In this document: one piece after another, positions 261 to 56,116 of the stretch | Layout: each line of letters starts with the position of its first letter | Position numbering within the stretch: the first letter of the stretch is position 1 | From: Pseudomonadales bacterium | GTDB taxonomy: Bacteria; Pseudomonadota; Gammaproteobacteria; Pseudomonadales; Azotimanducaceae | Assembly (NCBI GenBank): GCA_028285415.1 | Contig: JANQPF010000008.1 | Span: 62,001-126,000 of the forward strand | Reading direction: 5' to 3' | DNA length: 64,000 nt | Position numbers and translations under genes: made by a program | Notes under the pieces: model-generated | The model's input: only the letters and a program-made list of their open reading frames with translations | Databases searched by the model: none | What the model was told of the DNA's origin: nothing

Positions 261-381
261 ATCCCATATTATCCTGCACCGAGAGGGTTAACATGACGCG
301 GTCGGGTTTTGAGCGCGCGTTTGAGCGCGCGCAAGTACGCTGTCCAATGAGCTGTCTAATGAATAGTTGCAAAGTAAATTC

Positions 382-1944: not shown

Positions 1945-2076
1945 ACCAGCAACCTGCAACTGGTCAGCGAGTGAATCAGCACCCCATAAATCGTTCGGGA
2001 CTTCCTGCAAGCATTTTTCTGCCGGTCTATGCGTACGCCCTCTAACAGTCCGATCAACGGTCAACGTAACTAGCAA

Positions 2077-2766: not shown

Positions 2767-2769
2767 CAC

Positions 2770-2868
2770 GTGTATTCCACGCAGCAGCATATTCATGTCG
2801 CTACTGGATTCCACAAGATCGAGAACGCAGGCATCGAAATGCTGCAAGATAAGATAGCCCCATTCTGA
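2770..2868 (+). CDS. Possible 32-aa small protein
   Basis: A GTG-initiated frame of 32 codons lies between the methyltransferase (3 nt after its stop) and the polymerase gene (28 nt before its start). It contains 'HVATGFHKIENAGIEMLQDK'. It has no recognised family and could be chance. It is noted because it tiles the otherwise empty 130-nt spacer in an operon-like position. Confidence 0.2.
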   Translation: MYSTQQHIHVATGFHKIENAGIEMLQDKIAPF

Positions 2869-2896
2869 TAGACAATGGCATTCTGAAGCTGCACTG

Positions 2897-9273: not shown

Positions 9274-9326
9274 AATCGCTAAATATGACTCGTGCACAAG
9301 GACGACAATCCAGTGCAGTCCGCAAG

Positions 9327-9375: not shown

Positions 9376-9427
9376 CCGGTCCGAATAAAGGCTACGCTGC
9401 AAAAACCTTGCAAATACACAGTTGAGA

Positions 9428-10315
9428 ATGAGCCCCCATTCTAGCAGCTCTATGTTGACGAGTATTCGAAGTACGTCTCGGTGGTACGCCAAAAAGGTCG
9501 CTAGATTTTCGTTCGCGGCGGCAGCCCCGTTGATTGAGCCTTTCAGTCAAAATCAGGCAAACGAGCCCTGTGTCCGAGTGCTCACGTATCACCGTTTCGG
9601 AAACAACCCAAAAGATCCATTCTGCGTCACTCCTGAGGACTTCGAGGCGCAGATGTCGCTCCTGGCTTCGGAGCGTCGAGCGGTCTCTCTCTCACAAGTT
9701 TTGAGCTTCATGAACGAATCTGAGTCGATACCTGCAAACGCTTGCCTGGTGACAATCGACGACGGCATGCGCAGCACGCTTACGGAAGCATCGCCAATCC
9801 TGCAAAAATACAATATACCGGCAGTGGCGTTCGTCAGTTCCAATCTGGTAGGGCGGGAACTCGAGGACCTTCCTGAAGCTTATCTGAACCAAGAAGAACT
9901 CAGAACGTTAAACGAGTGTCCTCAAGTGACGATCGGCTCCCATGCCCACACACACCGATCGATGGGCGAACTGAGCATCACAGAAATGAGCGAAGAAGCC
10001 ACCAGGTCGAAGGCCCTGCTGACCGAATACGTCGGTACCACGGTCAACGCTTTCGCTTATCCCTTTGGCATGCAGAGAGATTTCAATGCAGAAACCGATG
10101 CCGCGCTACGCGCCGCCGGATATGACATTGCGTTCACCTCAATGCACGGACCCGTTACCAGGCACATGGAGCCGATCAGCCTGCCCCGGGTAAAAATTGA
10201 AGGCGGGGAGTCGCTGGCCATGTTTGCAAAGATCTCTTGCGGGGCCATGGACAACTGGCGTCTGATTGATGACCACATGTGGCGTGTCCAGCGCGTTCGC
10301 CGCGAGATTTCCTGA
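9428..10315 (+). CDS. Polysaccharide deacetylase (NodB homology domain)
   Basis: 295 aa from the ATG at 9428; a TTG two codons earlier is possible. A basic, hydrophobic N-terminus may be a membrane anchor. The NodB domain starts at 'RVLTYHRFG' (about residue 51). The metal/catalytic motif 'TIDDG' places Asp111-Asp112, and 'SHAHTH' gives His172 and His176 as metal ligands. 'FAYPFG' and 'SLPRVKIEGG' are later family blocks. It should remove N- or O-acetyl groups from a glycan as a CE4-type metalloesterase. It starts the plus-strand group deacetylase-asnB-glycosyltransferase, with asnB 17 nt downstream. Confidence 0.88.
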   Translation: MSPHSSSSMLTSIRSTSRWYAKKVARFSFAAAAPLIEPFSQNQANEPCVRVLTYHRFGNNPKDPFCVTPEDFEAQMSLLASERRAVSLSQVLSFMNESESIPANACLVTIDDGMRSTLTEASPILQKYNIPAVAFVSSNLVGRELEDLPEAYLNQEELRTLNECPQVTIGSHAHTHRSMGELSITEMSEEATRSKALLTEYVGTTVNAFAYPFGMQRDFNAETDAALRAAGYDIAFTSMHGPVTRHMEPISLPRVKIEGGESLAMFAKISCGAMDNWRLIDDHMWRVQRVRREIS

Positions 10316-18956: not shown

Positions 18957-18999
18957 TATTTGCGGGCTCCTTTTCGATCTGTCCCTTAAATCCGTATAC

Positions 19000-19052
19000 A
19001 TTATGCACCGAGCATTTGAGAGACGTGAGCGACTTTACATACTTAGTACAAG
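19000..19052 (-). promoter_or_regulatory. Putative NRPS promoter with shared upstream element
   Basis: Read on the minus strand: CTTGT, 7 nt, ATGTA (19036-19040) then AAGTCGC, and 30 nt after ATGTA a CATAAT box (19000-19005). The expected transcription start near 18993 gives a leader of about 37 nt to the ATG at 18956. Both the 12-bp core (plus strand GCGACTTTACAT, 19029-19040) and the downstream ACATTATGCA (18998-19007) recur with identical 31-nt spacing at 21708-21750. Confidence 0.5.
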
Positions 19053-21924: not shown

Positions 21925-24900
21925 TTGGCTATCGATCCATCTCTACTGGACAACGGTATTGCAATCGTCGGCATGTCTGCACGCTTGCCCGGCGCACCAG
22001 ACCTCGACACCTTCTGGGCAAACTTGCGCGCGGGCGTCGAATCACTTGTGCCGCAGTCCGATGAAGAACTGCTCGAGCGTGGTGTCTCACCGCAAACGTT
22101 AAAAGATCCAAACTACGTCAAAGTATCCGGAAGCCTCAGCGACGTTCCGATGTTCGACGCGGGTTACTTTGGCTTGTCACCTAAAGACGCAGCCATCACT
22201 GATCCTCAGCACCGACACTTCCTTGAATGTGCCGTCGAAGCGTTCGAAAACGCTGGTCATTCGACGCACCGGTTTGAGGGCTCAATCGGAGTGTTTGCCG
22301 GTTGTGGCATGAACTCGTACTTCGTGAATAACCTGCTTACGAATCCTGAAATGATCCGCACCGTTGGTGCATTCCTGTTGCGCCATACCGGGAACGACAG
22401 GGATTTTCTGCCGACGACCGTTTCCTACAAGCTGGATCTGCGCGGTCCGAGCATGGCCATTCAAACTGCTTGCTCCACATCGTTGGTCGCGGTACACGCA
22501 GCCTGCCAGAGTCTCCTGGGCGGCGAGTGTGAGATGGCCTTGGCGGGCGGTAGCACGATCTTAGTCCCCAACGGCCACGGATACTTTTATCGAGAAAACG
22601 AACCTGTCTCTCCCGATGGACATTGCAGGGCTTTCGAAGCCAACTCCGCTGGGACGGTCTTGACCAGCGGCACTGGAGTGGTCGTTCTGCGACGGCTCGA
22701 AGACGCCCTGGAAGACAACGATACAATCCATGCGATCATTCGGGGCTCCGCTGTCAACAACGACGGTGCAGGTAAGGTCGGCTATCTTGCGCCCAGCGTT
22801 GAAGGCCATGCCGGTGCGGTGGCAGAGGCTCTGGCCGTCGCCGACGTGACCGCAGATACGATCAGCTACGTTGAAGCGCACGGTACCGGTACCCGCGTCG
22901 GTGACCCCATAGAAGTTTCGGCCCTGACCAGAGCATTTCGAACGTCAACGGACCAAAATCAGTTCTGTCGTATCGGCTCGGTCAAAACGAACATCGGCCA
23001 TCTAGACACCGCGGCCGGGATCGCAAGCCTGCTCAAAGTCGTCAAGTCGATGCAAGCCAAAGAACTGGCGCCAACGTTACACTTCGAAAATCCCAATCCT
23101 GAAATCGACTTTGCTTCCACGCCGTTCATCGTGAATGCAGATCTGCGACCCTGGGAAGCAGGTGACACTCCCCGCAGAGCAGGCGTGTCGTCACTAGGTA
23201 TAGGTGGCACGAACGCACACGTCATTTTGGAAGAAGCGCCGCCTCTCCCGACTACAGATCCCGGGGCTCGCGCACATCAGGTGCTCACACTTTCGGCCAA
23301 AACTCGCACCGCCCTGGATGCTGCGTCAACCAACCTCGCAGAGTGGCTCCGAAACAACCCGCACGCGGATTTAGCAGACATTGCGTTCACCTTGCAGGAC
23401 GGGCGCGACTACTGGGACCACCGTCTCGTGGTCACGGCATCGAGCGTCGGCGAAGCCGAAGCTGCGCTGGCAGAGAAACACCCCGTCAAGGTTTCCTCGA
23501 ACAAAATTGGGGGAAAAGCCAGCGGTGTGGCGTTCATGTTCTCCGGCGCCGGTGGCCAGTACCCCAATATGGGACGCGATCTGTACGAGAGTGAACCTGT
23601 CTTTCGCGATGCCATGGATCGCTGCCTGGGTCTGTTGCAAGACATGATCGACTTCGATCTCAAAGCGCTCATGTACCCGGCCAAAGGCGACGAAGAAACG
23701 GCGGACGCAGAACTGCAGATACCATCCCGCCTCTGTCCCGCAGTTGTTGCGACAGAGTGGTCGCTTGCTCAACTGTGGAAATCCTGGAACATAGAGCCTG
23801 CAGGGATGATTGGTCACAGCCTGGGCGAGTACGTTGTTGCGTGCCTGGCCGAGGTCTTGACGCTGAGGGACATGTTGACCCTCGTCGTGTTGCGCGGAAA
23901 CCTCATTGACAGCTTGAGCGGAGGCGCGATGCTGTCGCTACCGCTCTCAGAGGAAGAAGCGCTGGAGTTCATCGGCGACGATCTTGATCTGGCTGCCGTA
24001 AACAGTCCGGGACTTTGCGTGGCATCTGGTCCGTTGGCAGATGTCGAAGCGCTTGATCGCCGGCTCGCTGATCGAGATATCGAGGCCCGAATGGTGCCCG
24101 TCAATGCAGCCGGACACTCCCGTCACCTGGATCCAATTCTCGAAGACTTTCGCCAAGGGGCGTCAAAGGTAGCGCTGTCCGCCCCGAAGGTACCCTATAT
24201 CTCAAACGTGACCGGTACCTGGGCACGGGAAGAAGATGTGACAGACCCGGACTACTGGGTACGACATCTGCGCGGAACCGTGCGGTTTGCGGACGGCCTG
24301 AAAGTCCTCATCGAAGGAAACGACCGGGTGTTACTCGAAGTCGGGCCGGGGCAGGGCCTCTGTACCTTCGCTCGCCAACAGGCAACCAAGGCGCTCGGGA
24401 CCGTTGCGTCCCTGCGTAAGCCATCCGATAACATCGCAGACCACGAATTTGCGTTGGGCGCATTCGGCAAACTATGGGCCTGTGGGTATGAGGTGGAATG
24501 GCAGACTTTGCGCGGTCAAAACGAGCGACGCCGACGTATTCCCTTACCCACCTATCCATTTGAACACAAGCCTTATTGGATCGAGGCCGGGGCCGCGATG
24601 GACATCGCTGAATCAGCGCCAGTCACACTCTCGAAACTCGACGAATTCGATGACTGGTTTCAGCGTCTGAGCTGGCAGGAAGCACCGTTGGCAGCAAGCA
24701 CGGGCGGTACCGAAGCAGTGCACTGGCTGATTTTCCTCGACACTACAGGTGTTGGGAAGGATCTGGTTGAGCGGTTGCGCGCCGCAGGTCACCAGGTGAC
24801 CACGGTATCCACGGCAGATACGTTTTTCCACATTGGCCACAATGAATACGCACTGGCACCGGAGCTTGGCCTGGAAGGGTATGAGCAACTGGTAGCAGCG

Positions 24901-27900
24901 CTTGCCGAAGCAGGTGAACTTCCGCAAAAGGTATTGCACCTGTGGGGTTTGACCCCGGAAGAATCGTTCCGACCGGGTTCCAGCTTCCTGGATCGGAATC
25001 AGGAGTGCGGGTTCTACAGCTTGTTATTCCTCATGCAAGCGCTCAGTAGTGCGGGAGAATCTGTAGCAGAGATCAGCGTTGTCACCAACGGCATGGTCTG
25101 CGTCAGCGAGGACGAAAAGGTCCTGTACCCCGAAAAAGCGACCATTCTCGGACCAATCAGGGTGATTCCACGCGAGTATCCCGATACGAAATGCCGCTGC
25201 ATTGACGTTGCATTGCCGACAACCCAGCCAGGTGGACTAATGAGTTGGGTGGGCTTGGAATCCAGTCGGGTCGACGAATCAGTCGTGCAGGCGCTATCGA
25301 ACCGTCTCTTCAGCGAACTGAACACGGATCCTGTCGCAAGTGTTGTGGCATGGCGCGGTGATCGACGCTTCGAAGAAACGCTCGAACGCAAATTGCCCAC
25401 GCCATCCGGCCTCCAACCCGGATTCCAGGAAAATGGCGTATATCTAGTCACAGGTGGCCTGGGTGGGTTGGGTTTTGCCCTGGCCGAGCGCGTCGCCAAA
25501 CGACACCAAGCCCGAATGGTGCTGATCAGTAGAACGGAGTTCCCGGCCGAAGAAGCGTGGGACGATTGGCTGTCCAACCACGGTGAGCGCGATGGGATCG
25601 CTCGCAAAATCAGAGCAATCCGAGCCGTTCGCGAGAGTGGTGGTGAACTATGGCCCGTCGCCGCAGATGTAACGGACGTTGAAAGCATGCGCCGCGTCAT
25701 CGACGAAACAGAAAATCGGTTTGGACCGTTGAATGGCGTGTTACACGCGGCAGCTTCCATCTCAGATGGAGTTTTGCAGACCAAAACAAAGGATGGGGCA
25801 GAGCAAGTATTCTCGACCAAACTCTACGGTACCTTGGTGCTCGACGAACTGTTGGCATCCAAGCCTCTGGATTTCTTCGCGGTATTCTCTTCGACGAGTG
25901 CTGTGGTGGGATTGCCCGGACAGGTGGACTATGCCGGTGCCAATGCATTCTTGAATGCCTTCGCCGAGCAGCGTAACCGTACAGGCAAACGAACGCTGGC
26001 GCTCGACTGGGGAATTTGGAACGACGTCGGCGGTGCAACGGAAATTGCCAGACAGATGCGCGACGAACCCGCCATACCAGACTACGTGCGTTCTACAGGA
26101 CACCCTCTTCTGGGTGAGTGCACGCTCGAAAGTGCGGATCATTGGCGCTGGGAAGCACAGTGGGAGCCAAAAGAGATCTGGGTCCTCGACGAACATCGGA
26201 ACGAAGAGCAAGTTCCGTTGCTACCCGGGACCGGTTACCTCGAGATTGCACGCGCTGCTTTCCACGACGCATTTGGAACGAGTGCTTGCCGCATCGAAAA
26301 CGCAGCTTTCCTGCAACCACTTGTCGTGGACGAAGAAGGCGTCAATTCCGTAAGCATGGATCTGGTGCGTACAGGAAATTCGTACGAGTTCAACGTGTCG
26401 AGTCATGCGAATGGCACCGGACAGGTAGAGCACGCAACTCTGATACTAAAGCCTCTTTCAGAAGCCGCAAATACCATCGACGTTGCAGACATCGCAGCGC
26501 GCTGCACGCGAAATCGAGAGATTGCCGCCGGTGAGGCGCCTTTGCCTAGTTCACAAGAAGCACAACTCGGATTCGGGCCACGTTGGTCATCTCTGCGTTC
26601 GATAGGATTTGGCGATCACGAAGCTTTTGCGGAAATGCGAGTGGATAAGCAATTCGAAACGGACTTCGAAACCTTCGGACTACATCCCGGATTACTCGAT
26701 ATCGCGACCAGCTTCGGCATTCCTCTCATTGAGGGCTGGCAAAGCGGCGAATCCATCTACGTACCGCTAGCTTATGGAGCCGTTCGGGTCAGCCGTCCCC
26801 TGCAATCCAGGATTTTTACTCATATTGTCAGCAACGCCAGGAATTCCTTCACCAAAGATGTTGCTACTTTCAACATCACGATTACCGATCCGCACGGTGA
26901 GGTACTCGTCGAAATCGACGATTACCAGATGCGTAAGCTGGAGGCGAAGTCAGGCTTCGGTTCACCCGCAGCCAAGAGTGCACCCACATCGGACACGAGA
27001 CGTGAACCTACCCCCATCGAAGCGGTCTTTCTTGAATCCTACGAGAGCGGCATATTGCTGGATGAAGGAACCAAAGCGCTGGAGAAAAGTCTGCAGGAGC
27101 TCGCAGGTGGCGTAACGGTTGTCAGCCCAATCAACATGGAAGATTGGCGCACGCGCATCGACAAGGCGTGTGACTCAAACTCTGAAACGGTAGGGGTCAC
27201 TTTCGCTCGACCGGACCTCGAAAGCGAGTACGAGGCGCCGCGCGACAAATTTGAAACCGAACTTGTAAAGATCTGGCAGGAGTTTCTCGGCGTAGATCAG
27301 ATTGGCATTCACGATGACTTCTTCGATCTCGGTGGACATTCGCTGATTGCCGTTAGATTGTTTGCCAAATTGAAGAAGCAATGGGGTGTCGATTGGCCCA
27401 TCTCGGTATTGTTCGACGCTCCCAACATCGGCCAGTTTGCTGATCTACTACGTAGCGAAGTCGGCGACGCTGACGAATCCGACGCTACATCTGAGGGTGT
27501 TGCACAAAAACGGCACCGCTTTCTCGTTGCCATGAATCGAACGAAGAATACGACTAGAACACCTCTGTTTCTGGTTGCGGGTATGTTCGGAAACGTACTT
27601 AACCTACGGCATCTGGCAACACACCTCGGCGAGGATCAGCCTGTCTATGCGCTACAGGCAAAAGGTTTGTATGGCGAAGACGAACCGCACCTGACTTTCG
27701 TGGATGCGGCACGGGATTACATTGCAGAGATCCGCGAGGTGCAGCCAACCGGACCTTACATGGTTGGAGGCTTTTCCGGTGGTGGCGTAACCGCGTTTGA
27801 GATTGCACATCAGCTGCTGCAGGCCGGTGAAGAGGTGTCCGCGCTGGTCATGCTGGACTCTATCCCCCCGCATCCAGCTTGGCCTGAAACGACCACCGTC

Positions 27901-28434
27901 GATCGTCTGCGCATCCGCGGTCAGTTATTGCGCAGGGAAATCCTGCACAATCCTTTGGGTTCGTTGAAACGGCGCCTCCGGTTTGAGTTGCAGAAGCGCA
28001 GTAAGCAAGGCAACGCACCGGAACGGACTCCCGCAGAATTCCGCTCCGACCAAATTGAAATAGCATTCAGAACTTCGCTCGCGAACTACGAAATGCGCGT
28101 GTTGCCGACTGACATCTCTCTCTTCCGACCGCCACTGGACGCCACCTATGACCTGGGTAACGGTCGTTGCGCCAACGTAGATGGTCTGCTCATGGAAGAT
28201 CGGAACTGGTGGGCACCATGGACGAGCGGCAGGGTAGATGTAGAAATTGTACCCGGCAACCATGACAGTATGGTTCTAGAACCTAATGTCAAAGTACTGG
28301 CAGCGCGTGTACGCAACGTACTCGACGATGCCCAGCAGTCCGGCGCTAAGCCGATCGGGATACGGACTGACGACAATGAACAAGTTGGAACCCAAGCAAA
28401 CACAGAGCAAGGAGTAAGGCGATATGCCAGCTAA
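21925..28434 (+). CDS. Type I polyketide synthase, KS-AT-KR-DH-ACP-TE
   Basis: 2169 aa, TTG start with GGAA about 7 nt upstream; no ATG or GTG lies between the preceding in-frame stop and the KS. KS about 12-430: triad Cys183 ('TACSTSL'), His319 ('EAHGTGT') and His359. AT about 530-840: Ser632 in GHSLGE, and 'NAAGHS' with His731 at the extender-selecting position. KR about 1170-1390: 'TGGLGGLG' with Lys1299, Ser1323 and Tyr1336. A DH-like double hotdog follows the KR (about 1410-1650): His1424 in 'LDEHRNEEQVPLLPG' and Asp1592 in 'LHPGLLD', with Glu replacing the usual Gly of HxxxGxxxxP. ACP Ser1806 in 'DLGGHSL'. TE about 1850-2140: Ser1951 in 'GFSGG', Asp1978, His2113. The KR-before-DH order is unusual for a type I module. 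The gene overlaps the next one, encoding a carboxylase/reductase, by 11 nt. Confidence 0.93.
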   Translation: MAIDPSLLDNGIAIVGMSARLPGAPDLDTFWANLRAGVESLVPQSDEELLERGVSPQTLKDPNYVKVSGSLSDVPMFDAGYFGLSPKDAAITDPQHRHFLECAVEAFENAGHSTHRFEGSIGVFAGCGMNSYFVNNLLTNPEMIRTVGAFLLRHTGNDRDFLPTTVSYKLDLRGPSMAIQTACSTSLVAVHAACQSLLGGECEMALAGGSTILVPNGHGYFYRENEPVSPDGHCRAFEANSAGTVLTSGTGVVVLRRLEDALEDNDTIHAIIRGSAVNNDGAGKVGYLAPSVEGHAGAVAEALAVADVTADTISYVEAHGTGTRVGDPIEVSALTRAFRTSTDQNQFCRIGSVKTNIGHLDTAAGIASLLKVVKSMQAKELAPTLHFENPNPEIDFASTPFIVNADLRPWEAGDTPRRAGVSSLGIGGTNAHVILEEAPPLPTTDPGARAHQVLTLSAKTRTALDAASTNLAEWLRNNPHADLADIAFTLQDGRDYWDHRLVVTASSVGEAEAALAEKHPVKVSSNKIGGKASGVAFMFSGAGGQYPNMGRDLYESEPVFRDAMDRCLGLLQDMIDFDLKALMYPAKGDEETADAELQIPSRLCPAVVATEWSLAQLWKSWNIEPAGMIGHSLGEYVVACLAEVLTLRDMLTLVVLRGNLIDSLSGGAMLSLPLSEEEALEFIGDDLDLAAVNSPGLCVASGPLADVEALDRRLADRDIEARMVPVNAAGHSRHLDPILEDFRQGASKVALSAPKVPYISNVTGTWAREEDVTDPDYWVRHLRGTVRFADGLKVLIEGNDRVLLEVGPGQGLCTFARQQATKALGTVASLRKPSDNIADHEFALGAFGKLWACGYEVEWQTLRGQNERRRRIPLPTYPFEHKPYWIEAGAAMDIAESAPVTLSKLDEFDDWFQRLSWQEAPLAASTGGTEAVHWLIFLDTTGVGKDLVERLRAAGHQVTTVSTADTFFHIGHNEYALAPELGLEGYEQLVAALAEAGELPQKVLHLWGLTPEESFRPGSSFLDRNQECGFYSLLFLMQALSSAGESVAEISVVTNGMVCVSEDEKVLYPEKATILGPIRVIPREYPDTKCRCIDVALPTTQPGGLMSWVGLESSRVDESVVQALSNRLFSELNTDPVASVVAWRGDRRFEETLERKLPTPSGLQPGFQENGVYLVTGGLGGLGFALAERVAKRHQARMVLISRTEFPAEEAWDDWLSNHGERDGIARKIRAIRAVRESGGELWPVAADVTDVESMRRVIDETENRFGPLNGVLHAAASISDGVLQTKTKDGAEQVFSTKLYGTLVLDELLASKPLDFFAVFSSTSAVVGLPGQVDYAGANAFLNAFAEQRNRTGKRTLALDWGIWNDVGGATEIARQMRDEPAIPDYVRSTGHPLLGECTLESADHWRWEAQWEPKEIWVLDEHRNEEQVPLLPGTGYLEIARAAFHDAFGTSACRIENAAFLQPLVVDEEGVNSVSMDLVRTGNSYEFNVSSHANGTGQVEHATLILKPLSEAANTIDVADIAARCTRNREIAAGEAPLPSSQEAQLGFGPRWSSLRSIGFGDHEAFAEMRVDKQFETDFETFGLHPGLLDIATSFGIPLIEGWQSGESIYVPLAYGAVRVSRPLQSRIFTHIVSNARNSFTKDVATFNITITDPHGEVLVEIDDYQMRKLEAKSGFGSPAAKSAPTSDTRREPTPIEAVFLESYESGILLDEGTKALEKSLQELAGGVTVVSPINMEDWRTRIDKACDSNSETVGVTFARPDLESEYEAPRDKFETELVKIWQEFLGVDQIGIHDDFFDLGGHSLIAVRLFAKLKKQWGVDWPISVLFDAPNIGQFADLLRSEVGDADESDATSEGVAQKRHRFLVAMNRTKNTTRTPLFLVAGMFGNVLNLRHLATHLGEDQPVYALQAKGLYGEDEPHLTFVDAARDYIAEIREVQPTGPYMVGGFSGGGVTAFEIAHQLLQAGEEVSALVMLDSIPPHPAWPETTTVDRLRIRGQLLRREILHNPLGSLKRRLRFELQKRSKQGNAPERTPAEFRSDQIEIAFRTSLANYEMRVLPTDISLFRPPLDATYDLGNGRCANVDGLLMEDRNWWAPWTSGRVDVEIVPGNHDSMVLEPNVKVLAARVRNVLDDAQQSGAKPIGIRTDDNEQVGTQANTEQGVRRYAS

Positions 28435-29674
28435 GAAGGATCTATATGAGTTGGGCGAAATCCCACCACTTGGACACGTTCCCGAAAAGATGTATGCGTC
28501 AGTGCTACGCCCTTGTCGCTACGGCGCTCCAGCAACAGCGTATGAGATGGAGGTCATGGACGTGCCGGAGCTGGGCCCTCGGCAGGTGATGATCAATGTC
28601 ATGGCCGCCGGTGTGAACTACAACGGAGTATGGACGTCGCTGGCTAAGCCCATCGACATGATTGCAGCGCGTCAGAAGTATGGTGACCCCCATGACTTCC
28701 ATATCGGCGGCTCAGAAGGTTCTGGGGTTGTGTGGGCCGTAGGCTCGGAAGTCAAAGACCTGCAAGTCGGCGATCATGTCATGGTTTCGCCATGCCACTG
28801 GGATGAACACGCATACGACATACGTATGGGTATAGATCCGATTGCCTCAAAGTCGACAAAAGTCTGGGGGTTTGAGGACAACTTCGGCTGTTTCGCACAG
28901 TTCTCTGTCGTCGATGATTTCCAGTGTTTTCGCAAACCCGAAAATCTGACCTTCGAGCAGGCTGCGAGCGTGTTCGTAAGCTTCGCGACCGCCTACCGCC
29001 AACTTACGGGTTGGGCTCCTCATGTCGTACGACCCGGCGATCCGATACTGATCTGGGGTGGCGCTGGCGGACTGGGAACCGCCGCAATTCAAATCGTTCG
29101 CGAGTTTGGAGGTCGTGGCATTGCAGTGGTTTCAAGCCCAGAAAAGGCCGACTTTTGCATGTCTCTCGGCGCAGCAGGCACCATAGATCGGCGTGACTTC
29201 AATCACTGGGGGCGGATGCCGGAAGTCGGGGGTGAAGGATTTGACGAATGGCAAAGAGGTGTCCGCGATTTTGGCAAGGCGTTCTGGGAAGTATTGGGAG
29301 CGAAGCAGAACCCATGGATCGTGTTTGAGCATTCAGGGCAAGACACAATGCCAACTTCTATTTTCATATGCGAAAACGGCGGAATGATTGTCACATGCGG
29401 GGCCACGTCTGGTTACAACTTGGACATCGATGCTCGTGTCTTGTGGATGCGCCTCAAACGCCTGCAAGGCTCCCACTTCGCCAGCCTTAGACAATGTCAG
29501 GAGGTCGTCAATCTGCTCGGACAGGAGCGGCTGGATCCGTTGTTGGCAAAGACGTGGGATTTCCCGGAAATAGGTCAGGCGCATCAGGTCATGCACGACA
29601 ATGCACACCCCCCCGGCAATATGGCGGTGGTTGTCAACGCACCAGAACGCGCCCTCAAACAACTCAAGGTTTAG
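28424..29674 (+). CDS. ccr: Crotonyl-CoA carboxylase/reductase (alkylmalonyl-CoA-forming)
   Basis: 416 aa. A medium-chain dehydrogenase fold with the NADPH motif 'WGGAGGLGTAAIQ' (211-223). The positions known to hold CO2 in this family are all visible: Asn in 'GVNYNGVW' (N67), Phe-Glu in 'GFEDNFG' (F150, E151) and His in 'LQGSHF' (H351). That separates it from plain enoyl reductases. It reductively carboxylates an alpha,beta-unsaturated acyl-CoA to an alkylmalonyl-CoA such as ethylmalonyl-CoA. Its start lies inside the 3' end of the PKS gene, so it most likely supplies that PKS with its extender unit rather than serving central C2 assimilation. Confidence 0.93.
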   Translation: MPAKKDLYELGEIPPLGHVPEKMYASVLRPCRYGAPATAYEMEVMDVPELGPRQVMINVMAAGVNYNGVWTSLAKPIDMIAARQKYGDPHDFHIGGSEGSGVVWAVGSEVKDLQVGDHVMVSPCHWDEHAYDIRMGIDPIASKSTKVWGFEDNFGCFAQFSVVDDFQCFRKPENLTFEQAASVFVSFATAYRQLTGWAPHVVRPGDPILIWGGAGGLGTAAIQIVREFGGRGIAVVSSPEKADFCMSLGAAGTIDRRDFNHWGRMPEVGGEGFDEWQRGVRDFGKAFWEVLGAKQNPWIVFEHSGQDTMPTSIFICENGGMIVTCGATSGYNLDIDARVLWMRLKRLQGSHFASLRQCQEVVNLLGQERLDPLLAKTWDFPEIGQAHQVMHDNAHPPGNMAVVVNAPERALKQLKV

Positions 29675-35380: not shown

Positions 35381-35824
35381 ATGCGAATCCTCGCCGTTTC
35401 TTCAGGTGGCGGCCACTGGGTTGAATTACTGCGATTGTTGCCTGCGTTCGAACAACACGAGCTGCAGTTCGTCACGGTGAACGCAACTTACCGGCATGAG
35501 GTCGAGGCACATGCATTCCAAGTCGTGCGCGACGCGACACGTTGGAACCCAATGGGTTTAGTCGTTGTCGCTGCGCAGCTCTCACGTATCGTTCTGAAAA
35601 CACGACCCGACATTGTCATTACGACCGGCGCTGCGCCAGGATTGTTGGCGCTGGCGATCGGCAAATTGGCAGGCGCAAAAACCATCTGGTTGGACAGCAT
35701 AGCGAATGTCGACGAGCTCTCAGGCTCTGGACGCCTGGCGAAATGGTGCGCTGATTTATGGTTAACTCAATGGGAGCATCTCGCTAAAGATGGTGGACCG
35801 GAATACGCGGGTAGAGTTTTATGA
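35381..35824 (+). CDS. Alg14/PssD-like membrane-anchor subunit of a split glycosyltransferase
   Basis: 147 aa, beginning 'MRILAVSSGGGHWVELLRLLP', the hallmark start of Alg14-type proteins. A hydrophobic segment 'GLLALAIGKLAGAKTIWLDS' follows. In this family the subunit provides the acceptor-binding half and recruits the catalytic Alg13-type partner to the membrane. The partner starts within its stop codon (ATGA overlap, 35821-35824), a typical coupled arrangement. Confidence 0.88.
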   Translation: MRILAVSSGGGHWVELLRLLPAFEQHELQFVTVNATYRHEVEAHAFQVVRDATRWNPMGLVVVAAQLSRIVLKTRPDIVITTGAAPGLLALAIGKLAGAKTIWLDSIANVDELSGSGRLAKWCADLWLTQWEHLAKDGGPEYAGRVL

Positions 35825-36321
35825 TCTTCGTGACGGTGGGTCACCAGACGCCGTTTGACCGCCTCATTCACGCAGTCGACATGTGGGCTGCTGCAAATCC
35901 AGGCATCAGTATTTTCGGTCAAATTGGAGACGGCAGCTATGAACCGGAAGCCTTCCCGTTCTCTCGCTGGTTGAGTTCGGAGGACTTCGGAACACGAATA
36001 GCCGCCTCCACTGCAATCGTATCCCATGCTGGCACAGGAACAATTCTGCAGGTCTTGATGGCAGACAAACCGCTCCTGGTTCTACCTCGCCAGGCCGCAC
36101 AGAACGAAACTCGCAACGACCACCAAATCGGCACGGCCAGATACTTTTCGGAAGCTGGGCTGATCTTGTCCATCGAGGACGAAACTGAGATAGCCGGTGG
36201 CATTTCGCACCTGCTGAGTTGGCGCCCGAGCACAACAATCTCCGCGAATGCATCTCCACAACTGATCAATCGCTTGACTAGTTACATCCAACTGCAGTCA
36301 CCCGGAAAAACACGTCCATAA
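35821..36321 (+). CDS. Alg13/PssE-like donor-binding subunit of a split glycosyltransferase
   Basis: 166 aa: 'MIFVTVGHQTPFDRLIHAVD' at the N-terminus and the glycosyltransferase family 28 C-terminal block 'AIVSHAGTGTILQVLMADKPLLVLPR' (broken here as ...SHAGTGT... then ...KPLLVLPR..., about 66-91), followed by 'NDHQIGTARYF'. This is the UDP-sugar-binding half. With the Alg14-like protein it forms one GT-B enzyme, likely transferring GlcNAc, GlcA or a related sugar to a lipid-linked acceptor. Confidence 0.88.
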   Translation: MIFVTVGHQTPFDRLIHAVDMWAAANPGISIFGQIGDGSYEPEAFPFSRWLSSEDFGTRIAASTAIVSHAGTGTILQVLMADKPLLVLPRQAAQNETRNDHQIGTARYFSEAGLILSIEDETEIAGGISHLLSWRPSTTISANASPQLINRLTSYIQLQSPGKTRP

Positions 36322-36399: not shown

Positions 36400-37527
36400 A
36401 TGGCTATCGAAGTTGTTCCCCATTCCCGAGAATTCTCGTCCGCCGTGGAGGCGTTCAACCTGCGGATGCGCGCAGGCGGATCAGAGTGGGGGTTTTACGT
36501 CGACTCGACGCCGGATTGGATACCATTCAAAGAAGGCGCACGAACGTGGCGTGAGTACCATCTCGCCGTTGAAGATCAAAAAGTTGTCAGAGGCGCTTAT
36601 GCGCTGAAGCCTCAAGAGTGGCTAGTAAACGGAGAAGTTCATTGGTTAGCCGACTGGCAGGGTCCTTTCACCGAGGCTGAAATCAACACGAAGTACAGTC
36701 CCTTGATGTTGCGCCTGGCACGGGCGGCTGAAAAACAATACCAACTGCTTTTCAGCCTGGGGCACAAGCCGGACGATGCAAGGACGCTGCAAAAGATGGG
36801 TTGGGGATTGTATGGCACCCCGTTCTGTTTTCAGGTCATCAAACCTCTCAGATTTCTCCTCAAGAACAAGTACCTGCGAACGACAAAGCTCCGTCGGTTC
36901 GCGCTGGATCTGTTCGCGTATTCCTTCGTCGGCCCGTTCGCAATGAAAACAGCAACGGCACTACTTAGGTTGTCCAACTCACGGAAGGCGCAAGAAACGC
37001 ATGTCGAGGTAGTTGACTCGTTCGGAGACTGGGCGGACGAAATATGGAAAGCTAACAAATCAGCATACGGAACCATCGCCTTCAGAGACAAAGAAGCGAT
37101 GAATACGCTGCTGCCGGCTACTGGATGGCCTCAGGGAGCGACCCGATTGAAAGTTAGTGCCGATGGGCGACCCATCGGGTGGAGCGTCGTTTTCGTCAAA
37201 CAGATGGTGGACGACAGTCGGTTCGGCTCCTTGAAAGTAGGCCTCGTGGCCGACTGCTTCGCCCACCCCGACGACGCGTTGAACGTCCTGCGCCCAACAC
37301 ATGAGTACTTGAAATCATGCGACGTGGACCTGATATGTTCGAACATGTCGCATCCAGATTGGATAAGTGGCCTGAGGAGTTTGGGCTACATCATTCTTGA
37401 AAACAGGCGCTTGTACGCGTTTTCTCCAAAGTTGAAGCGTTTGCTCGACCCTCTTAGTGAATCTGCTTGCGGCCTACATCTGACCAATCTGGACGGCCAC
37501 GGACCGCACGGGTTCGAAGCAGACTGA
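36400..37527 (+). CDS. GNAT/FemAB-like acyltransferase, function unknown
   Basis: 375 aa. I see no textbook signature, but the pattern resembles proteins with two GNAT-like lobes found in polysaccharide and PEP-CTERM loci: 'GAYALKPQEWLVNGEVHWLADW' (about 67-88), 'LLFSLGHKPDDARTLQKMGW' (about 115-134) and, in the second half, 'DGRPIGWSVVFVKQM' and 'LRSLGYIILENRRLYAFS' near the C-terminus. It likely binds an acyl-CoA or acyl/aminoacyl carrier. Its stop overlaps the start of the flavin monooxygenase by 1 nt, so it belongs to the A-domain/AurF cassette and is a candidate for moving that cassette's product onto an acceptor. Low certainty on function. Confidence 0.55.
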   Translation: MAIEVVPHSREFSSAVEAFNLRMRAGGSEWGFYVDSTPDWIPFKEGARTWREYHLAVEDQKVVRGAYALKPQEWLVNGEVHWLADWQGPFTEAEINTKYSPLMLRLARAAEKQYQLLFSLGHKPDDARTLQKMGWGLYGTPFCFQVIKPLRFLLKNKYLRTTKLRRFALDLFAYSFVGPFAMKTATALLRLSNSRKAQETHVEVVDSFGDWADEIWKANKSAYGTIAFRDKEAMNTLLPATGWPQGATRLKVSADGRPIGWSVVFVKQMVDDSRFGSLKVGLVADCFAHPDDALNVLRPTHEYLKSCDVDLICSNMSHPDWISGLRSLGYIILENRRLYAFSPKLKRLLDPLSESACGLHLTNLDGHGPHGFEAD

Positions 37528-38666
37528 TGGCTCACCCCAGTCACATCGAGCTAGATGATGCATTGATTGTCGGCGCAGGACTCGCCGGCTCTCTCCTTGC
37601 CGGAGTGCTGCGGGGGAGAGGTACCAGAGTTGATGTGATAGACAACGCGCAAACGTTCGACGAACGGGCTGGCGCCGGCATTCTCATCACCGGAAATGGT
37701 ACACGCGCACTGACCACTTTAGGCATACGTGAGCTCGACACTGCGGCCGCGCGTATCACCCAAGTGGAAATCTGCGATCAGGATGAGGGACATCTCGGCA
37801 CGGTAGACTGTACACGACCTGGCTGGCCACCATTCTTGAGCTTCCGCCACTCGCTATTGCGCCGTCTGCTGCTCCAAGATTGCCAAGTACGACATGGACT
37901 GACCGTGGACTCGATTAATCATGAGCGCCGCACGTCTGTGACGTTCTCAGATGGCTCAACTCAATCATACGATCTGGTCGTCGGGGCAGATGGGGTGCAC
38001 TCGCGCGTCCGACGCCTTTTATTTGGACAGGACTTATTGAATGACCTGGACCAATACAGCGGATACCGGTTTGTTGCTGACCTAGGATTTTGCCTCCCGC
38101 ACCCTACGACTTACATCGGCAATGGTTTAACCCTTCTGCTCGTGCCGCTTCCCAACGGAGAAACATATTGCGGAGCGGGACCGATTGTCAGCGACTGTCT
38201 GAAAGAGAGGGGGAGTGCCGTAACTACACTGAAGGAGACATTCCGTCATTTTTCGGGAGCGGCGGCAAGAGCCATCGCTTCAATAGATACCACTACCAAT
38301 CTAATCCCGAGTAAATTTTGGAACCTGCAGCAACCGACCTGGGTCAAGGGTTGTTGTTTGCTGATTGGTGATGCTGCCCACGCAATGCCCCCGACGATCT
38401 CTCAGGGCGGGTCGATGGCCTTTGAAGATGTATTGGTGTTGTTGACCTGCATTGAGCAGAACGACGACATAAGCCGCGCTCTGCTTGACTACGAATCACG
38501 ACGACGCCCGCGAGTAGAATTCGTACAACATCACTCGCTACAGCGGATCGGTGCCAACGACTACGTTTCGCCGCGAGCGGAAACCGCTCGGCGCTTCGCA
38601 ATGACCTCATTTGCCGCAGATGCTCTCGGCGACATTTGGGACAAGCTAGCTAATGAATCTCCTTGA
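37527..38666 (+). CDS. FAD-dependent monooxygenase (p-hydroxybenzoate hydroxylase fold)
   Basis: 379 aa. The ATG at 37527 overlaps the previous stop, and is chosen because the FAD dinucleotide motif 'DALIVGAGLAGSLLAGVL' begins ten residues later. The DG motif 'GADGVHSRVRRLL' (about 155-167) and the GD motif 'LLIGDAAHAMPPTISQGG' (about 278-295) complete the class A flavoprotein hydroxylase signature. It probably hydroxylates or oxidises the acyl/aminoacyl intermediate of the cassette using NAD(P)H and O2. It lies 18 nt before the adenylation gene. Confidence 0.85.
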   Translation: MAHPSHIELDDALIVGAGLAGSLLAGVLRGRGTRVDVIDNAQTFDERAGAGILITGNGTRALTTLGIRELDTAAARITQVEICDQDEGHLGTVDCTRPGWPPFLSFRHSLLRRLLLQDCQVRHGLTVDSINHERRTSVTFSDGSTQSYDLVVGADGVHSRVRRLLFGQDLLNDLDQYSGYRFVADLGFCLPHPTTYIGNGLTLLLVPLPNGETYCGAGPIVSDCLKERGSAVTTLKETFRHFSGAAARAIASIDTTTNLIPSKFWNLQQPTWVKGCCLLIGDAAHAMPPTISQGGSMAFEDVLVLLTCIEQNDDISRALLDYESRRRPRVEFVQHHSLQRIGANDYVSPRAETARRFAMTSFAADALGDIWDKLANESP

Positions 38667-38684
38667 GGAGATCGGGTACTAAAC

Positions 38685-40208
38685 ATGGTTCACCTCATCC
38701 AAGAATACCTCACAAACTCAGTTAAAAATTACCCTGACGAAATAGCGGTGTCCTGTAGAGAGGACAGTATCACCTATCGAGAACTGGACGAGCAGACAAA
38801 CATGATCGCGCACGAGTTTAAGACACTCGAGATCACCCGTGGTCAATTCGTACCTATCTTCATTCACAAAAGCATCAACTCTCTGCTGGCAATCTTTGCC
38901 ATTCTGAAGTCAGATTGTGCGTACGTGCCGATCGACACGGAATCCCCGGCCGACAGGATCTGTCAGATACTCGAAGCAACCAACGCAGACACCGTGGTCG
39001 TAGACAATGAAACCGCATCGCTGTTCGAGTCCCTCTTCGCGGACGCGGCCGTACCGGTAAACGTGCTCAACATTGACGAGATTCATGGGGCTCGTACGGA
39101 CGCCCTCGAATACGAGAATCTCTCGATAGACGTCGCCTATGCACTCTTTACCTCCGGTTCGACCGGAGCACCCAAAGGGGTCATGATCAGCCACCAGATG
39201 ATTGTGGACTATATCGATTGGTGCGTGGACACATACGGCATCAAGCAGCAGGATCGAGTCGCGAATCACGCGCCGCTGTATTTCGACAATTCCACCTTCG
39301 ATATCTATGTGGCACTCAGTACCGGCGCCCAACTCCATCTGGTACACGATGAACTCAACCAGATCATGCCCAAGCTGATAACGTGGTTACAGGACAGGAA
39401 GATCACCGTATTTTTCTGCGTTCCTAGCGTGCTTTCCATACTTAAGCGTACCAAACGGGTCACCCGGGACCGCCTCGGATCTCTTCGACACGTTATTGCG
39501 GCAGGTGAGGTACTACCACCGGAGGTTGTCAGCTTCTGGATGGAACAGTTGCCGGAAGCCCAATTCACCAACATGTACGGACCCACAGAGATAACCGTAG
39601 ACTGTACCTTTCACGTTCTGAATGCCGTTCCGGGCGAAGAGGGCGTGCCTATCGGGAAGTCACGAAGGAACATGGAGGTGTTTGTCCGCGTTGCAGACGG
39701 TTCGCTGACGAACGCACCCGGCGCTGAAGGGGAAATAGCCGTTCGCGGTAAATCAGTTTCATACGGCTATCTGAACAATCCAGAAAAAACAGCAGGGTCT
39801 TTCGTTCAGAATCCAGATCATGACCTCTATCACGATCCAATCTATCTGACTGGAGATTACGGTCGTTTCGCCGAGGATGCCGTCCTGTTCTACCTCGGAC
39901 GGATCGATCAACAGATCAAATACATGGGCAATCGAATCGAATTAGGTGAAATCGAAGCTGCAATTCGAAAGATTGACGGTGTAGTTGATACCGCAGTCGT
40001 TTTCCACGACGACCCTAACCTCGATGACAAGTTTATTGGCGCACTTGTTGTCGCAGAGGAAGTTTCAGTCGAAGAGATTGGTGCGTTCCTGCAGAATCAT
40101 TTGCCGGTTTATATGGTCCCTAAGAAAATTAACACGGTGGCGGACCTTCCACGTACAGCAAACGGTAAAACCGACCGGAAGAGGGCACTGAGCATCCTGG
40201 TGGGCTAA
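38685..40208 (+). CDS. Stand-alone amino acid adenylation enzyme (DltA/NRPS A-domain type)
   Basis: 507 aa, a complete A domain without carrier. Core motifs: A3 'LFTSGSTGAPKGVMISH' (about 155-171), A4 'LYFDNSTFDIYVAL' with the Asp that binds an alpha-amino group, A5 'NMYGPTEITVD', A7 'YLTGDYGRFAEDAVLFYLGR', A8 'YMGNRIELGEIEAAI' and A10 'PRTANGKTDRK'. It should activate an amino acid as aminoacyl-AMP and load the separate carrier protein at 41215. The specificity residues read by eye are DNFFIAMVDK, which match no code I can name. Its position directly before AurF and a carrier suggests oxygenation of a carrier-bound amino acid. Confidence 0.9.
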   Translation: MVHLIQEYLTNSVKNYPDEIAVSCREDSITYRELDEQTNMIAHEFKTLEITRGQFVPIFIHKSINSLLAIFAILKSDCAYVPIDTESPADRICQILEATNADTVVVDNETASLFESLFADAAVPVNVLNIDEIHGARTDALEYENLSIDVAYALFTSGSTGAPKGVMISHQMIVDYIDWCVDTYGIKQQDRVANHAPLYFDNSTFDIYVALSTGAQLHLVHDELNQIMPKLITWLQDRKITVFFCVPSVLSILKRTKRVTRDRLGSLRHVIAAGEVLPPEVVSFWMEQLPEAQFTNMYGPTEITVDCTFHVLNAVPGEEGVPIGKSRRNMEVFVRVADGSLTNAPGAEGEIAVRGKSVSYGYLNNPEKTAGSFVQNPDHDLYHDPIYLTGDYGRFAEDAVLFYLGRIDQQIKYMGNRIELGEIEAAIRKIDGVVDTAVVFHDDPNLDDKFIGALVVAEEVSVEEIGAFLQNHLPVYMVPKKINTVADLPRTANGKTDRKRALSILVG

Positions 40209-40250
40209 CCAAGGCTGCCCGCCCGGGACGTTACAAAGCGCTAACATAGC

Positions 40251-41189
40251 GTGCGTAATCCTCAACTGAAACCGATAAAAACGCGTTATCATAGCGAATC
40301 ATTTTGCGGAGCATTCCACGTGCCACATTCTGCTGCAGAGCTGGTTGACCGATTGGGGGCGATGTCCATCGAACGGGCATGGGATCCGTACACCAGTTTC
40401 GACTGGCCAGAAAGTCTGGATCCGGAGGCCGAGTACTACATGAGCCCGGAGCTCATGTCGCTATATGGCACCGAAGCCTATGAAGCGCTGAACGAGACGG
40501 ATCGAAAACGTTTGAGCTTCTACGAAATAAACAACTTTTTCAGTTTTGTGTTGCTTGGCGAACGCCCGGTCGTCGGCGGGATGACGGAAAGGATGTACCG
40601 CAAAGACACCATGGGGCCCATTACCGACTATCTTCATCATTTCATCGACGAAGAAAACAAGCACATGGTGATGTTCAGCCTGTTCTGCAACCGGTACCTC
40701 GGGCGTATTTACCCCGAGAAAAAACTTGCAATCGATCGTGAAATGGCTCCGGGCGAAGAAGACCTCGTTTTCTATTGCCGAGTTCTCATCGTCGAAGAAC
40801 TCGGCGACGTTTATAACAGAAAAATGCAAGAAGATTCACGGATCAACGAGCTGGTACGTCAGATCAACGAGTTCCATCACAGGGACGAAGCCCGCCACCT
40901 CGCCTTTGGCAGGGCGTGGGCCGCTGAGTTGTTTGAGCGACATACCCAAGATTGGTCGCCGGCCCAGCTCGAGCGTTTTCAGGATTGGCTGGCGCGGTAT
41001 TTCGCTTCCTCCTGGACGGACTTCTACAACCCCTCCGTGTACCGTGACGCGGGACTGGCTGGCGGCTATCAGCTGCGCCAGGAGGCTATTGCCCATCCCA
41101 AGCAGCGGGCTTTCAGAGCCGAAGCATCAGACAAACTCGTGAGATTCTTTTTGAAACATGGGTTCCTCAAAGAAGCTCCCGCGCTTTAG
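40251..41189 (+). CDS. AurF-family diiron N-oxygenase
   Basis: 312 aa with a GTG start and no clear ribosome-binding site; the N-terminal edge is uncertain. A full set of diiron ligands can be read: Glu92 ('YEINNF'), Glu135-x2-His138 ('EENKH'), Glu182 ('VEELGD'), His209 ('EFHHRD'), Glu213 and His216 ('DEARH'). The spacing of the last four equals that of the reference enzyme AurF. Such enzymes oxidise amines to hydroxylamine, nitroso or nitro groups; CmlI acts on an aminoaryl precursor and some relatives act on carrier-bound substrates. Here it is flanked by a stand-alone A domain and a carrier, so N-oxygenation of a tethered amino acid is the leading idea. Confidence 0.88.
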   Translation: MRNPQLKPIKTRYHSESFCGAFHVPHSAAELVDRLGAMSIERAWDPYTSFDWPESLDPEAEYYMSPELMSLYGTEAYEALNETDRKRLSFYEINNFFSFVLLGERPVVGGMTERMYRKDTMGPITDYLHHFIDEENKHMVMFSLFCNRYLGRIYPEKKLAIDREMAPGEEDLVFYCRVLIVEELGDVYNRKMQEDSRINELVRQINEFHHRDEARHLAFGRAWAAELFERHTQDWSPAQLERFQDWLARYFASSWTDFYNPSVYRDAGLAGGYQLRQEAIAHPKQRAFRAEASDKLVRFFLKHGFLKEAPAL

Positions 41190-41214
41190 AACTTAGTTAT
41201 TTCGAGACAGTAAA

Positions 41215-41484
41215 GTGACAAACAATGACATCCCACACGTGCTATCGAATTGGATTCTCGATAGAGCAAACGTCACCGACCGTGAGTTCTTTGACTCTCA
41301 AACCAAGATTATCGACGATGGCCTACTGACTTCCTTGGACGTGGTTGAACTGATTCTCTTCATCGAAGATCTGAGAGGTGAAGAGGTTGACATCGATGCG
41401 CTCGAACCCGAGTCGTTCGCGAACATTGAGACCCTTGTTGAAACTTTTTTCCCATCAGTGTCACGAGATTCCCAGATCGCATAA
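41215..41484 (+). CDS. Acyl/peptidyl carrier protein
   Basis: 89 aa, GTG start 25 nt after the AurF-like gene. The carrier fold is short and acidic; the phosphopantetheine site is Ser40 in 'DDGLLTSLDVVEL', followed by 'LILFIEDLRGEEVDID'. It is the natural partner for the adenylation enzyme at 38685 and the substrate presenter for the AurF-like and FAD enzymes. No phosphopantetheinyl transferase gene was seen in the window, so a housekeeping or Sfp-type enzyme elsewhere must activate it. Confidence 0.88.
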   Translation: MTNNDIPHVLSNWILDRANVTDREFFDSQTKIIDDGLLTSLDVVELILFIEDLRGEEVDIDALEPESFANIETLVETFFPSVSRDSQIA

Positions 41485-41603: not shown

Positions 41604-43013
41604 ATGCAGATCTCGAAAAGTAGGCACCTAAAGCAACTCTTGAGAACGCAAGATGTTTCGATAAGCGTCCTTTGCTATTTAGTGGCTGTGAATGCTGCAT
41701 GGTGGGTCGGTCTGCTGAACGCAACCAGTGTCGGAAATCACCTCCTTCTGAGTCCGGTTGTTTTTCTATTCAGCCTTGTTGCGTCCACTTTTGAATTGCC
41801 CGGGTTGCAGGGTAAGCGGATGCTGGTCGTTGCATTTCTGGCCACCCGATACGCAGCTATCGTTGTCATTTGCATGTTGGCAATAGCGTATTTCGGCAAA
41901 TTCGAGTTCGTGAGCCGTTATGCGATACTACTTTTTGGAGCCCTGCTCGTCACGGCTATCGTGAGCAACCGCCTGTTCCTCCGCTGGTGGTATTTCACCG
42001 GACGACGCGAACACCCGGACAACTTTCTCCAAGTGCTGGTCGTCGGCACAGGTAGCCGCGCTCGCCGCCTCATGCACGTTTACCAGAACAACTCGGATTG
42101 GGGCATCAACATAGTCGGTATGCTGGACCCTCTCACCGACGAAGGGATTGGGGAAAGTGAAGATGTTCCGATTCTCGGCAACATCCGGGAGATCAAGAAG
42201 ATATTGAAAGAATCCGTCGTAGATGAGGTCATCATATGTCTACCGCGCAGCCTGCTCGACGACGTCGGCGCCGTCGTCGAGGTGTGTGCAGAACAGGCAG
42301 TCTGCGTGAAGTTTCTCGCAGATATCTACGAAATCGAAGGAGGGCAATTCAATCTGGAGCGCATAGGCACGTGGCCGGTGCTGAGCCTCAACCCGATTTC
42401 GCGCGATGAGGGCTCGTTGATCGTTAAGCGAATCGTCGATCTGCTCATCACCGTTCCGGCTCTTCTGGTTCTTTCTCCATTGTTTTTGTTGACCGCTTTG
42501 GCAATCAAGCTTGAATCGCCGGGGCCCGTTTTCTTCAGGCAGGTCCGCGTCGGCTTGAACAAACGAAAATTCAGAATGATAAAGTTTCGCAGTATGTACC
42601 AGGACGCTGAACGGCGATTAGCGGAAATTGAACATCTAAATGAAGCCGATGGTCCGATCTTCAAGATGAAGAACGATCCGCGAGTGACCAAAGTTGGCAA
42701 GCTAATCAGACGAGCAAGCGTCGACGAACTCCCTCAACTGTTCAACGTCCTGTTTGGACAAATGAGCCTCGTGGGACCCAGACCAATGTCGACCAGGGAC
42801 GTCGATCTTTTCAGCAAAGGCATACAAAGAAAGCGATTCAGCGTCCGCCCTGGATTGGCGTGTTTGCGCGAAGTTTCAGGTCGTAGCGCTTTATCTTTCG
42901 ATCAGTGGTTGGCGCTGGATCTGAAGTACATCGACGAGTGGTCTTTGTGGCTTGATATCAAGATTTTGTTCAAATTGGTCCCCGCCGTGGTCATGGGGGA
43001 TGGCGCGGTGTAG
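41604..43013 (+). CDS. Polyprenyl-phosphate hexose-1-phosphate transferase (WbaP/WcaJ type)
   Basis: 469 aa. Four hydrophobic helices in the first 115 residues, then a CoA-binding-like cytoplasmic domain ('VLVVGTGSRARRLMHVY', 'DEVIICLPRSLL'), a membrane hairpin ('LLITVPALLVLSPLFLL') and the catalytic bacterial sugar transferase domain: 'MIKFRSMYQDAERR', 'RRASVDELPQLFNVLFGQ' and 'MSLVGPRPMSTRDVD'. It starts a repeat unit by moving a sugar phosphate to undecaprenyl phosphate. It is the first of two such enzymes in the window, and this one has the lower-G+C composition of the accessory region. It is followed 16 nt later by an SGNH hydrolase. Confidence 0.9.
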   Translation: MQISKSRHLKQLLRTQDVSISVLCYLVAVNAAWWVGLLNATSVGNHLLLSPVVFLFSLVASTFELPGLQGKRMLVVAFLATRYAAIVVICMLAIAYFGKFEFVSRYAILLFGALLVTAIVSNRLFLRWWYFTGRREHPDNFLQVLVVGTGSRARRLMHVYQNNSDWGINIVGMLDPLTDEGIGESEDVPILGNIREIKKILKESVVDEVIICLPRSLLDDVGAVVEVCAEQAVCVKFLADIYEIEGGQFNLERIGTWPVLSLNPISRDEGSLIVKRIVDLLITVPALLVLSPLFLLTALAIKLESPGPVFFRQVRVGLNKRKFRMIKFRSMYQDAERRLAEIEHLNEADGPIFKMKNDPRVTKVGKLIRRASVDELPQLFNVLFGQMSLVGPRPMSTRDVDLFSKGIQRKRFSVRPGLACLREVSGRSALSFDQWLALDLKYIDEWSLWLDIKILFKLVPAVVMGDGAV

Positions 43014-44410: not shown

Positions 44411-44463
44411 ATTGATAGGGTTTGGCTCATACCCTTGAAAACGTTGTCACGCCACGTCGTCAG

Positions 44464-54391: not shown

Positions 54392-54398
54392 CGTGAAC

Positions 54399-56102: not shown

Positions 56103-56116
56103 GTCTCGGAGGTTCC

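Follow-up and report, generated by a model that had tools for sequence, protein, structure and literature searches.

Why should a gene for an AurF-type diiron oxygenase lie within a bacterial polysaccharide locus? The question is raised by a cassette of five genes in a 64,000-nucleotide stretch of contig JANQPF010000008.1 from a Pseudomonadales bacterium (hereafter the window), in which an acyltransferase (here ACT), a flavin monooxygenase, a stand-alone adenylation (A) enzyme, the AurF-type enzyme and a stand-alone carrier protein follow one another (Table 1). We consider it moderately probable that this cassette encodes a carrier-protein pathway which makes an N-oxidised amino acid and passes it to a surface glycan. 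In the pathway that we infer, including its substrate, order of steps, oxidation state and acceptor, the A enzyme would activate a small amino acid with ATP and load it on the phosphopantetheine arm of the carrier, the AurF-type enzyme would oxidise the amino nitrogen of the carrier-bound residue to a hydroxylamine, or to an oxime, nitroso or nitro group, and ACT would transfer the acyl group off the carrier onto an amine, most likely that of an amino sugar freed by an N-deacetylase. The initial annotation had drawn a similar line from activation to transfer; it stands in part, since the gene set recurs in glycan loci and the fold of ACT fits, but the flavin enzyme is not part of the core and the gene order varies.

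The evidence consists of the genes present, their family and fold assignments, the conservation of active-site positions, recurrence and the linkage of two subtypes. All five open reading frames (ORFs) are present on the plus strand at the positions first assigned to them, and the flanks are likewise as described, with PssD/PssE (Alg14/Alg13-like) on one side and an initiating sugar transferase on the other. ACT ends on the nucleotide where the ATG of the flavin enzyme begins (37527, a 1-nt overlap), and gaps of 18 nt (38666/38685), 42 nt (40208/40251) and 25 nt (41189/41215) follow with the AurF ORF as listed. Comparison with relatives suggests that AurF starts more likely at GTG 40320 than at 40251, which opens a 111-nt gap after the A gene. 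The window AurF lies over the curated cut-off of PF11583 (145.7 vs 29.6 bits), and its complete 3-His/4-Glu site was confirmed: the putative ligand positions, which we take to be those of the diiron centre in AurF, read EEHEHEH in all 22 AurF sequences, including four that do not belong to a cassette. No PDB relative was found from the single sequence (threshold 0.001), and the profile found weak ones only (best 7.6e-4). Its relative HamC is described as oxidising tethered valine and, in vitro, the amino group of p-aminobenzoate (PMC5878181). The window A enzyme contains the domains PF00501 and PF13193 only and passes TIGR01733 (366.3 vs 317.4 bits). Neither the carrier nor ACT has a Pfam match (E 0.01); as a single sequence the carrier gave weak matches to NCBIfam carrier models only, while a profile of eight sequences, with the attachment Ser unchanged in all eight, found the aminoacyl carrier PltL (2.5e-9).

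ACT had been called GNAT-like, a label that found no support by sequence and gained it from the predicted structure, which contains two GNAT folds in tandem. With E values up to 10 allowed (Pfam, HMMER with filters on), none of 11 members matched a GNAT family, and only VpsR, G-patch and DUF166 appeared, for one member each; no GNAT match was found in Pfam, NCBIfam, PHROG or PDB sequences, and comparison of the ACT profile with PF13480 members from relatives gave probabilities of 0.1-10%. By its fold, ACT is plausibly an N-acyltransferase. FemX-type aminoacyltransferases are absent from the 50 VIA matches listed, which does not exclude them, and no plasmid relatives of ACT were found.

The cassette is rare and scattered. 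An AurF scan with one genome per species gave 10 loci, seven of them with ACT (not L007, L009 or L011). Searches with ACT, whose counts include genomes known already, found it in one of 369 genomes of the class, namely that of the window, and in 3 of 206 of its family; the family of G097 gave 3 of 299, and the phylum of G102 gave 12 of 329, 10 of them strong. When 282 genomes from the phylum of G101 were drawn in a second round, the same loci came back minus those of G102 and G1215. The range extends from Burkholderia relatives to myxobacteria, mostly next to sugar-polymer genes, and the named records are metagenome-assembled genomes of Methylibium, Rhizobacter, Aquincola, Myxococcota, Deltaproteobacteria and an unclassified bacterium. 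Our comparison covers 22 stretches from 19 genomes, leaving out weak ACT matches (G1119, 2.6e-9; G1131, 6.8e-6; a second match in G960) and the AurF loci in which no ACT was seen (L007, L009, L011, L013 and the short stretches L015-L027, which were not widened). An AurF gene lies within 27 kb of an ACT in every one of the 19 genomes, 10 of which were found by ACT alone, so that for these the association is not built in. A carrier gene is present in 19 of the 22 stretches, a type 1 A enzyme in 16 and a type 2 A enzyme in three; the stretches with neither A type are G101_C90, whose A and carrier genes lie on another contig, and copies b and c of G1087. The initial annotation had proposed a search for the cassette in other polysaccharide loci, and there the set of A, carrier, AurF and acyltransferase does recur, but not the fixed order A-AurF-carrier, which differs between genomes. 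For ACT, AurF, carrier and A, gene distances are correlated (r 0.83-0.97), which demonstrates joint inheritance, not function.

Two subtypes of the cassette differ in their A enzyme. Type 1 enzymes (52-94% alike among nine compared) carry the pocket D-L-F/H-S-L-C-L/I-I-A-K in 14 of the 14 placed out of 16, with G960 and G1215 left out and the last letter missing in L003, which is cut off; type 2 enzymes (the window, G1115 and G980) carry D-N-F-C-I/L-A-M-V-D-K in all three. The numbering is what we take to be that of GrsA, and position 278 was placed by eye and is possibly off by one. The window enzyme is 29-34% identical to type 1 enzymes and 54-58% to its G1115 and G980 counterparts. Its 32-34% identity to nine other A enzymes had given rise to the idea of a one-off replacement, which was rejected once a Myxococcota search returned these closer relatives, with the same pocket and a flavin enzyme. 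Earlier placed as a link in the line, the flavin enzyme is present in only three of the 19 stretches that have an A enzyme of either type: it accompanies all three of type 2, directly ahead of the A gene in transcription, and none of the 16 of type 1 (Fisher p 0.001, treating stretches as independent despite related genomes). Its relatives beside the type 2 A genes of G1115 and G980 are 37-40% identical. The window AurF is 49-61% identical to 15 type 1 AurFs but 45% to the AurFs of G1115 and G980, two proteins that share 66% with each other; together with the restriction of the flavin enzyme to type 2, this suggests that flavin enzyme and A enzyme move as a pair. The rest of the window's genome gave no type 1 A enzyme (the best other match reached 186 bits), and among the plasmid matches listed the window A and flavin enzymes reached 30-36% only. 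Type 1, with its AlmE/DltA-like A enzyme, would likely use glycine or alanine, and in type 2 the flavin monooxygenase may act on the substrate of the different A enzyme before or after loading.

The surroundings of the cassette are mostly those of glycan assembly. At least one match to a glycosyltransferase, Wzx, Wzy, sugar-phosphate transferase or sugar-nucleotide gene was found in 16 of the 19 genomes, in G100 a single GT2. PssD/PssE genes lie 8-19 kb from ACT in G025, G854, G960 and G1087a. In G101, ACT and AurF stand among Wzx-type, GT4, RmlD and below-cut-off Wzy genes, and on another contig the carrier, A and N-deacetylase genes lie with PssD/PssE, less than 4 kb separating the latter from carrier and A. 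The N-deacetylase gene, whose window product falls below the PgaB/IcaB equivalog TIGR03938 (72 vs 321.9 bits), is found less than 1.2 kb from the A gene in nine other genomes. The window also encodes a second initiating sugar-phosphate transferase, recognised by similarity, and several glycosyltransferases, besides an asparagine-synthase-like amidotransferase. The pair of SxtJ-like and carbamoyltransferase genes was found again in Burkholderiales and own-family loci. To the right of the polysaccharide locus, a minus-strand block (49369-57679) that includes type II secretion system protein L (50643-51893) and has synteny in G025 and G854 is followed by a TonB receptor gene (59635-62607, plus strand).

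Table 1. Cassette genes and neighbouring features of the window, with window coordinates
Feature	Coordinates	Strand	Basis
ACT: tandem-GNAT acyltransferase, putative aminoacyltransferase	36400..37527	+	predicted fold
FAD monooxygenase, type 2-specific	37527..38666	+	PF01494 8.7e-20
Stand-alone A enzyme, type 2	38685..40208	+	PF00501 6.4e-72, PF13193, TIGR01733
AurF-type diiron enzyme, probable N-oxygenase	40320..41189 (listed ORF from 40251)	+	PF11583 2e-42
Stand-alone aminoacyl carrier protein	41215..41484	+	profile match to PltL, invariant Ser
PssD + PssE split glycosyltransferase, directly upstream of cassette	35381..36321	+	Pfam, NCBIfam
Initiating polyprenyl-phosphate sugar transferase	41604..43013	+	TIGR03025 386.3 vs cut-off 295.55 bits
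Wzz-like (367-1944) and Wzy/ligase-like (2897-4432), left end of polysaccharide locus	367..4432	+	
NodU/CmcH-type carbamoyltransferase	5711..7552	-	
SxtJ-like protein, next to carbamoyltransferase	7721-8131	-	
Sulfotransferase	8338..9297	-	PF00685 1.2e-22
Polysaccharide N-deacetylase, PgaB/IcaB-like	9422..10315	+	PF01522 passes
Nonribosomal peptide synthetase: formyltransferase - A with inserted luciferase-like monooxygenase - carrier	14307..19001	-	
Type I polyketide synthase, one module, KS-AT-DH-KR-ACP-TE	21925..28434	+	
Crotonyl-CoA carboxylase/reductase	28424..29674	+	TIGR01751 536 vs cut-off 378.55 bits

Several findings weigh against passage of an oxidised amino acid to a glycan. No glycosyltransferase, Wzx or Wzy match was found in G998 (12.7 kb), G980 (40 kb) or G1059 (34 kb), of which the latter two have only the N-deacetylase from the glycan set; since that set of similarity searches was partial and several contigs are short, these absences are soft. 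The N-deacetylase itself is present in only 10 of the 19 genomes, and the window copy lies 26 kb from ACT. The Wzx label of 44422-45990 is tentative, the product having no Pfam match at E 0.001 and being named from its hydrophobic segments, its location and its resemblance to genes in the corresponding position of G025 and G854. Similarity of fold does not show function. N-myristoyltransferase, 9% identical to ACT, uses acyl-CoA rather than a carrier as donor and protein N-termini as acceptor. Copies b and c of ACT in G1087 are without AurF, carrier and type 1 or type 2 A enzyme, and ACT may serve other donors too. Close AurF relatives without the cassette occur at L007, L009, L011 and L013, which means that this AurF branch need not act on a cassette carrier. 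Lastly, polyketide synthases (PKS) were matched in nine genomes and nonribosomal peptide synthetases (NRPS) in eight of 19, at the thresholds used.

Two side observations concern the neighbours of ACT. Of the extra G1087 copies (L115-L116, L117-L118), one lies near Wzx-, Wzy-, GT2c- and AsnB-like genes and the other adjoins a different A enzyme (33%). In G960, a row next to ACT (L107 1560-7108) comprises MBOAT/SGNH-like and acyl-CoA dehydrogenase-like genes, another A enzyme (32%) and a 102-aa ORF that is a possible carrier, the labels except A being given by eye; it is reminiscent of pyrrole-carboxyl loading (PltF/PltL/PltE).

The presence of NRPS and PKS genes supports the strongest alternative, that the cassette provides or caps the N-oxidised amino acid of a small secreted metabolite, which may carry sugar and carbamoyl groups, with the polysaccharide genes as mere neighbours. 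The initial description of the locus did not name the NRPS (with its formyltransferase and luciferase-like monooxygenase), the PKS or the crotonyl-CoA carboxylase/reductase, the last matched in six of 19 genomes; NRPS and PKS occur together in eight, the window included, and in G960 AurF and A are flanked by PKS and NRPS, with ACT and carrier more than 20 kb off. The NRPS of G854 has no formyltransferase part, and the PKS end in G100, on a short contig, is below threshold. The PKS link is thus real in nearly half of the genomes. Against this, no NRPS or PKS match was found near the cassette in G101 (58 + 17 kb), G1115 (40 kb), G980 (40 kb) or G1059 (34 kb), so the cassette is linked more broadly to glycan loci than to PKS, and in G101 the deacetylase and PssD/PssE remain with carrier and A; we regard service to an NRPS-PKS as unlikely, if credible. 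As a side idea, the A domain of the NRPS, into which the luciferase-like monooxygenase is inserted, may take glycine by the specificity code (Ile236, Gly301, Trp331).

The AurF relatives without A and carrier favour a second alternative, in which AurF acts on a sugar amine or another substrate, and A, carrier and ACT perform plain aminoacylation of the Alm/Dlt kind with the amino acid left unoxidised. The window's own genome (G000, 5.97 Mb) has a second AurF, 44% identical, with no A or carrier matches nearby, and nitro-sugars occur in antibiotics. Yet AurF was found in all 19 genomes with a strong ACT match and lies less than 0.7 kb from the carrier gene in 17 of them, which, with the tethered substrate described for HamC, makes this alternative improbable. 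This second AurF (L013 8833-10826, G000:C15) lies directly 3' of a stand-alone TIGR04020 luciferase-like monooxygenase gene and adjoins an RND pump gene; the AurF of L007 likewise adjoins a TIGR04020 luciferase-like monooxygenase. Highly improbable is a carrier-dependent C-H hydroxylase in place of an N-oxygenase, for although PF11583 membership indicates a diiron scaffold, not a reaction, and diiron enzymes as a class hydroxylate carbon too, all seven ligand positions are kept and HamC oxidises an amine.

A more ambitious version of carrier-bound N-oxidation for a glycan, which we rate as rather unlikely, is that amino sugars of the surface polysaccharide bear N-hydroxyamino acyl or, once formylated, hydroxamate groups, giving a covalently anchored metal-binding or redox-active glycan, the product of a modular cassette in which exchange of the A enzyme and its flavin partner alters the amino acid.

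How does the cassette compare with known systems? AlmE-AlmF-AlmG modifies the lipid A of Vibrio cholerae with glycine, and DltA-DltC-DltB modifies teichoic acid with D-alanine, each with a stand-alone A enzyme, a stand-alone carrier with an attachment Ser and a transferase that puts the amino acid on an envelope polymer, as we propose here. Leu and Cys of the AlmE and DltA pockets recur in the type 1 pocket, and the structures of AlmE (4oxi) and DltA are among the type 1 A profile matches. The cassette differs in including a diiron oxygenase and in its transferase, a tandem GNAT in place of LPLAT (AlmG) or MBOAT (DltB); a Pfam scan of 30 window proteins, a part of the window ORFs, found no LPLAT or MBOAT match, and the window A enzyme falls below the DltA equivalog TIGR01734 (315.8 vs 559.85 bits). 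The ham/pvf/mgo diazeniumdiolate clusters (HamC/PvfB) likewise combine an AurF-type enzyme with NRPS-type amino acid activation, but their NRPS has A, thiolation and reductase domains, whereas the cassette A enzyme is free-standing with no reductase domain. No HamA- or HamE-like family was assigned to any of the five cassette genes, and the locus is a glycan locus. The best single-domain PDB relatives of type 1 A enzymes are 8k4r, which we take to be VinM (1.7e-115), and 6akd (1.5e-108), of the VinM/IdnL7 type; such enzymes accept Gly, L-Ala and L-Ser, but their pocket has Cys (IdnL7 C217) in place of the type 1 Leu, and the amino acid that they attach to a beta-aminoacyl carrier serves as a protecting group. 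Rhizobial Nod factors are decorated by NodB, NodA, NodU and NodH, a pathway that resembles the locus in having an N-deacetylase, a carrier-fed N-acyltransferase, a carbamoyltransferase and a sulfotransferase, partly common families; it differs in its fatty acyl rather than aminoacyl donor and in making an oligosaccharide, where the window has polymer-assembly genes, and the window carbamoyltransferase is below the NodU equivalog (131.5 vs 1000 bits).

In summary, the cassette would act like Alm/Dlt but misses two of its defining features, the transferase type and the DltA equivalog; nor is it a ham/pvf cluster. We found no paper in the open-licence literature on AurF in a polysaccharide locus or on the joining of envelope aminoacylation with carrier-bound N-oxidation. 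If the proposed pathway is correct, ACT would constitute a new family of carrier-dependent N-acyltransferases, and the two natural subtypes would offer a ready test of which enzyme determines the amino acid. Envelope polymers that bear amino acids (Dlt, Alm) are known, as are small-molecule pathways that oxidise nitrogen on a carrier (ham, pvf); together the two would bring hydroxylamine, nitroso or hydroxamate chemistry to bacterial surface glycans.

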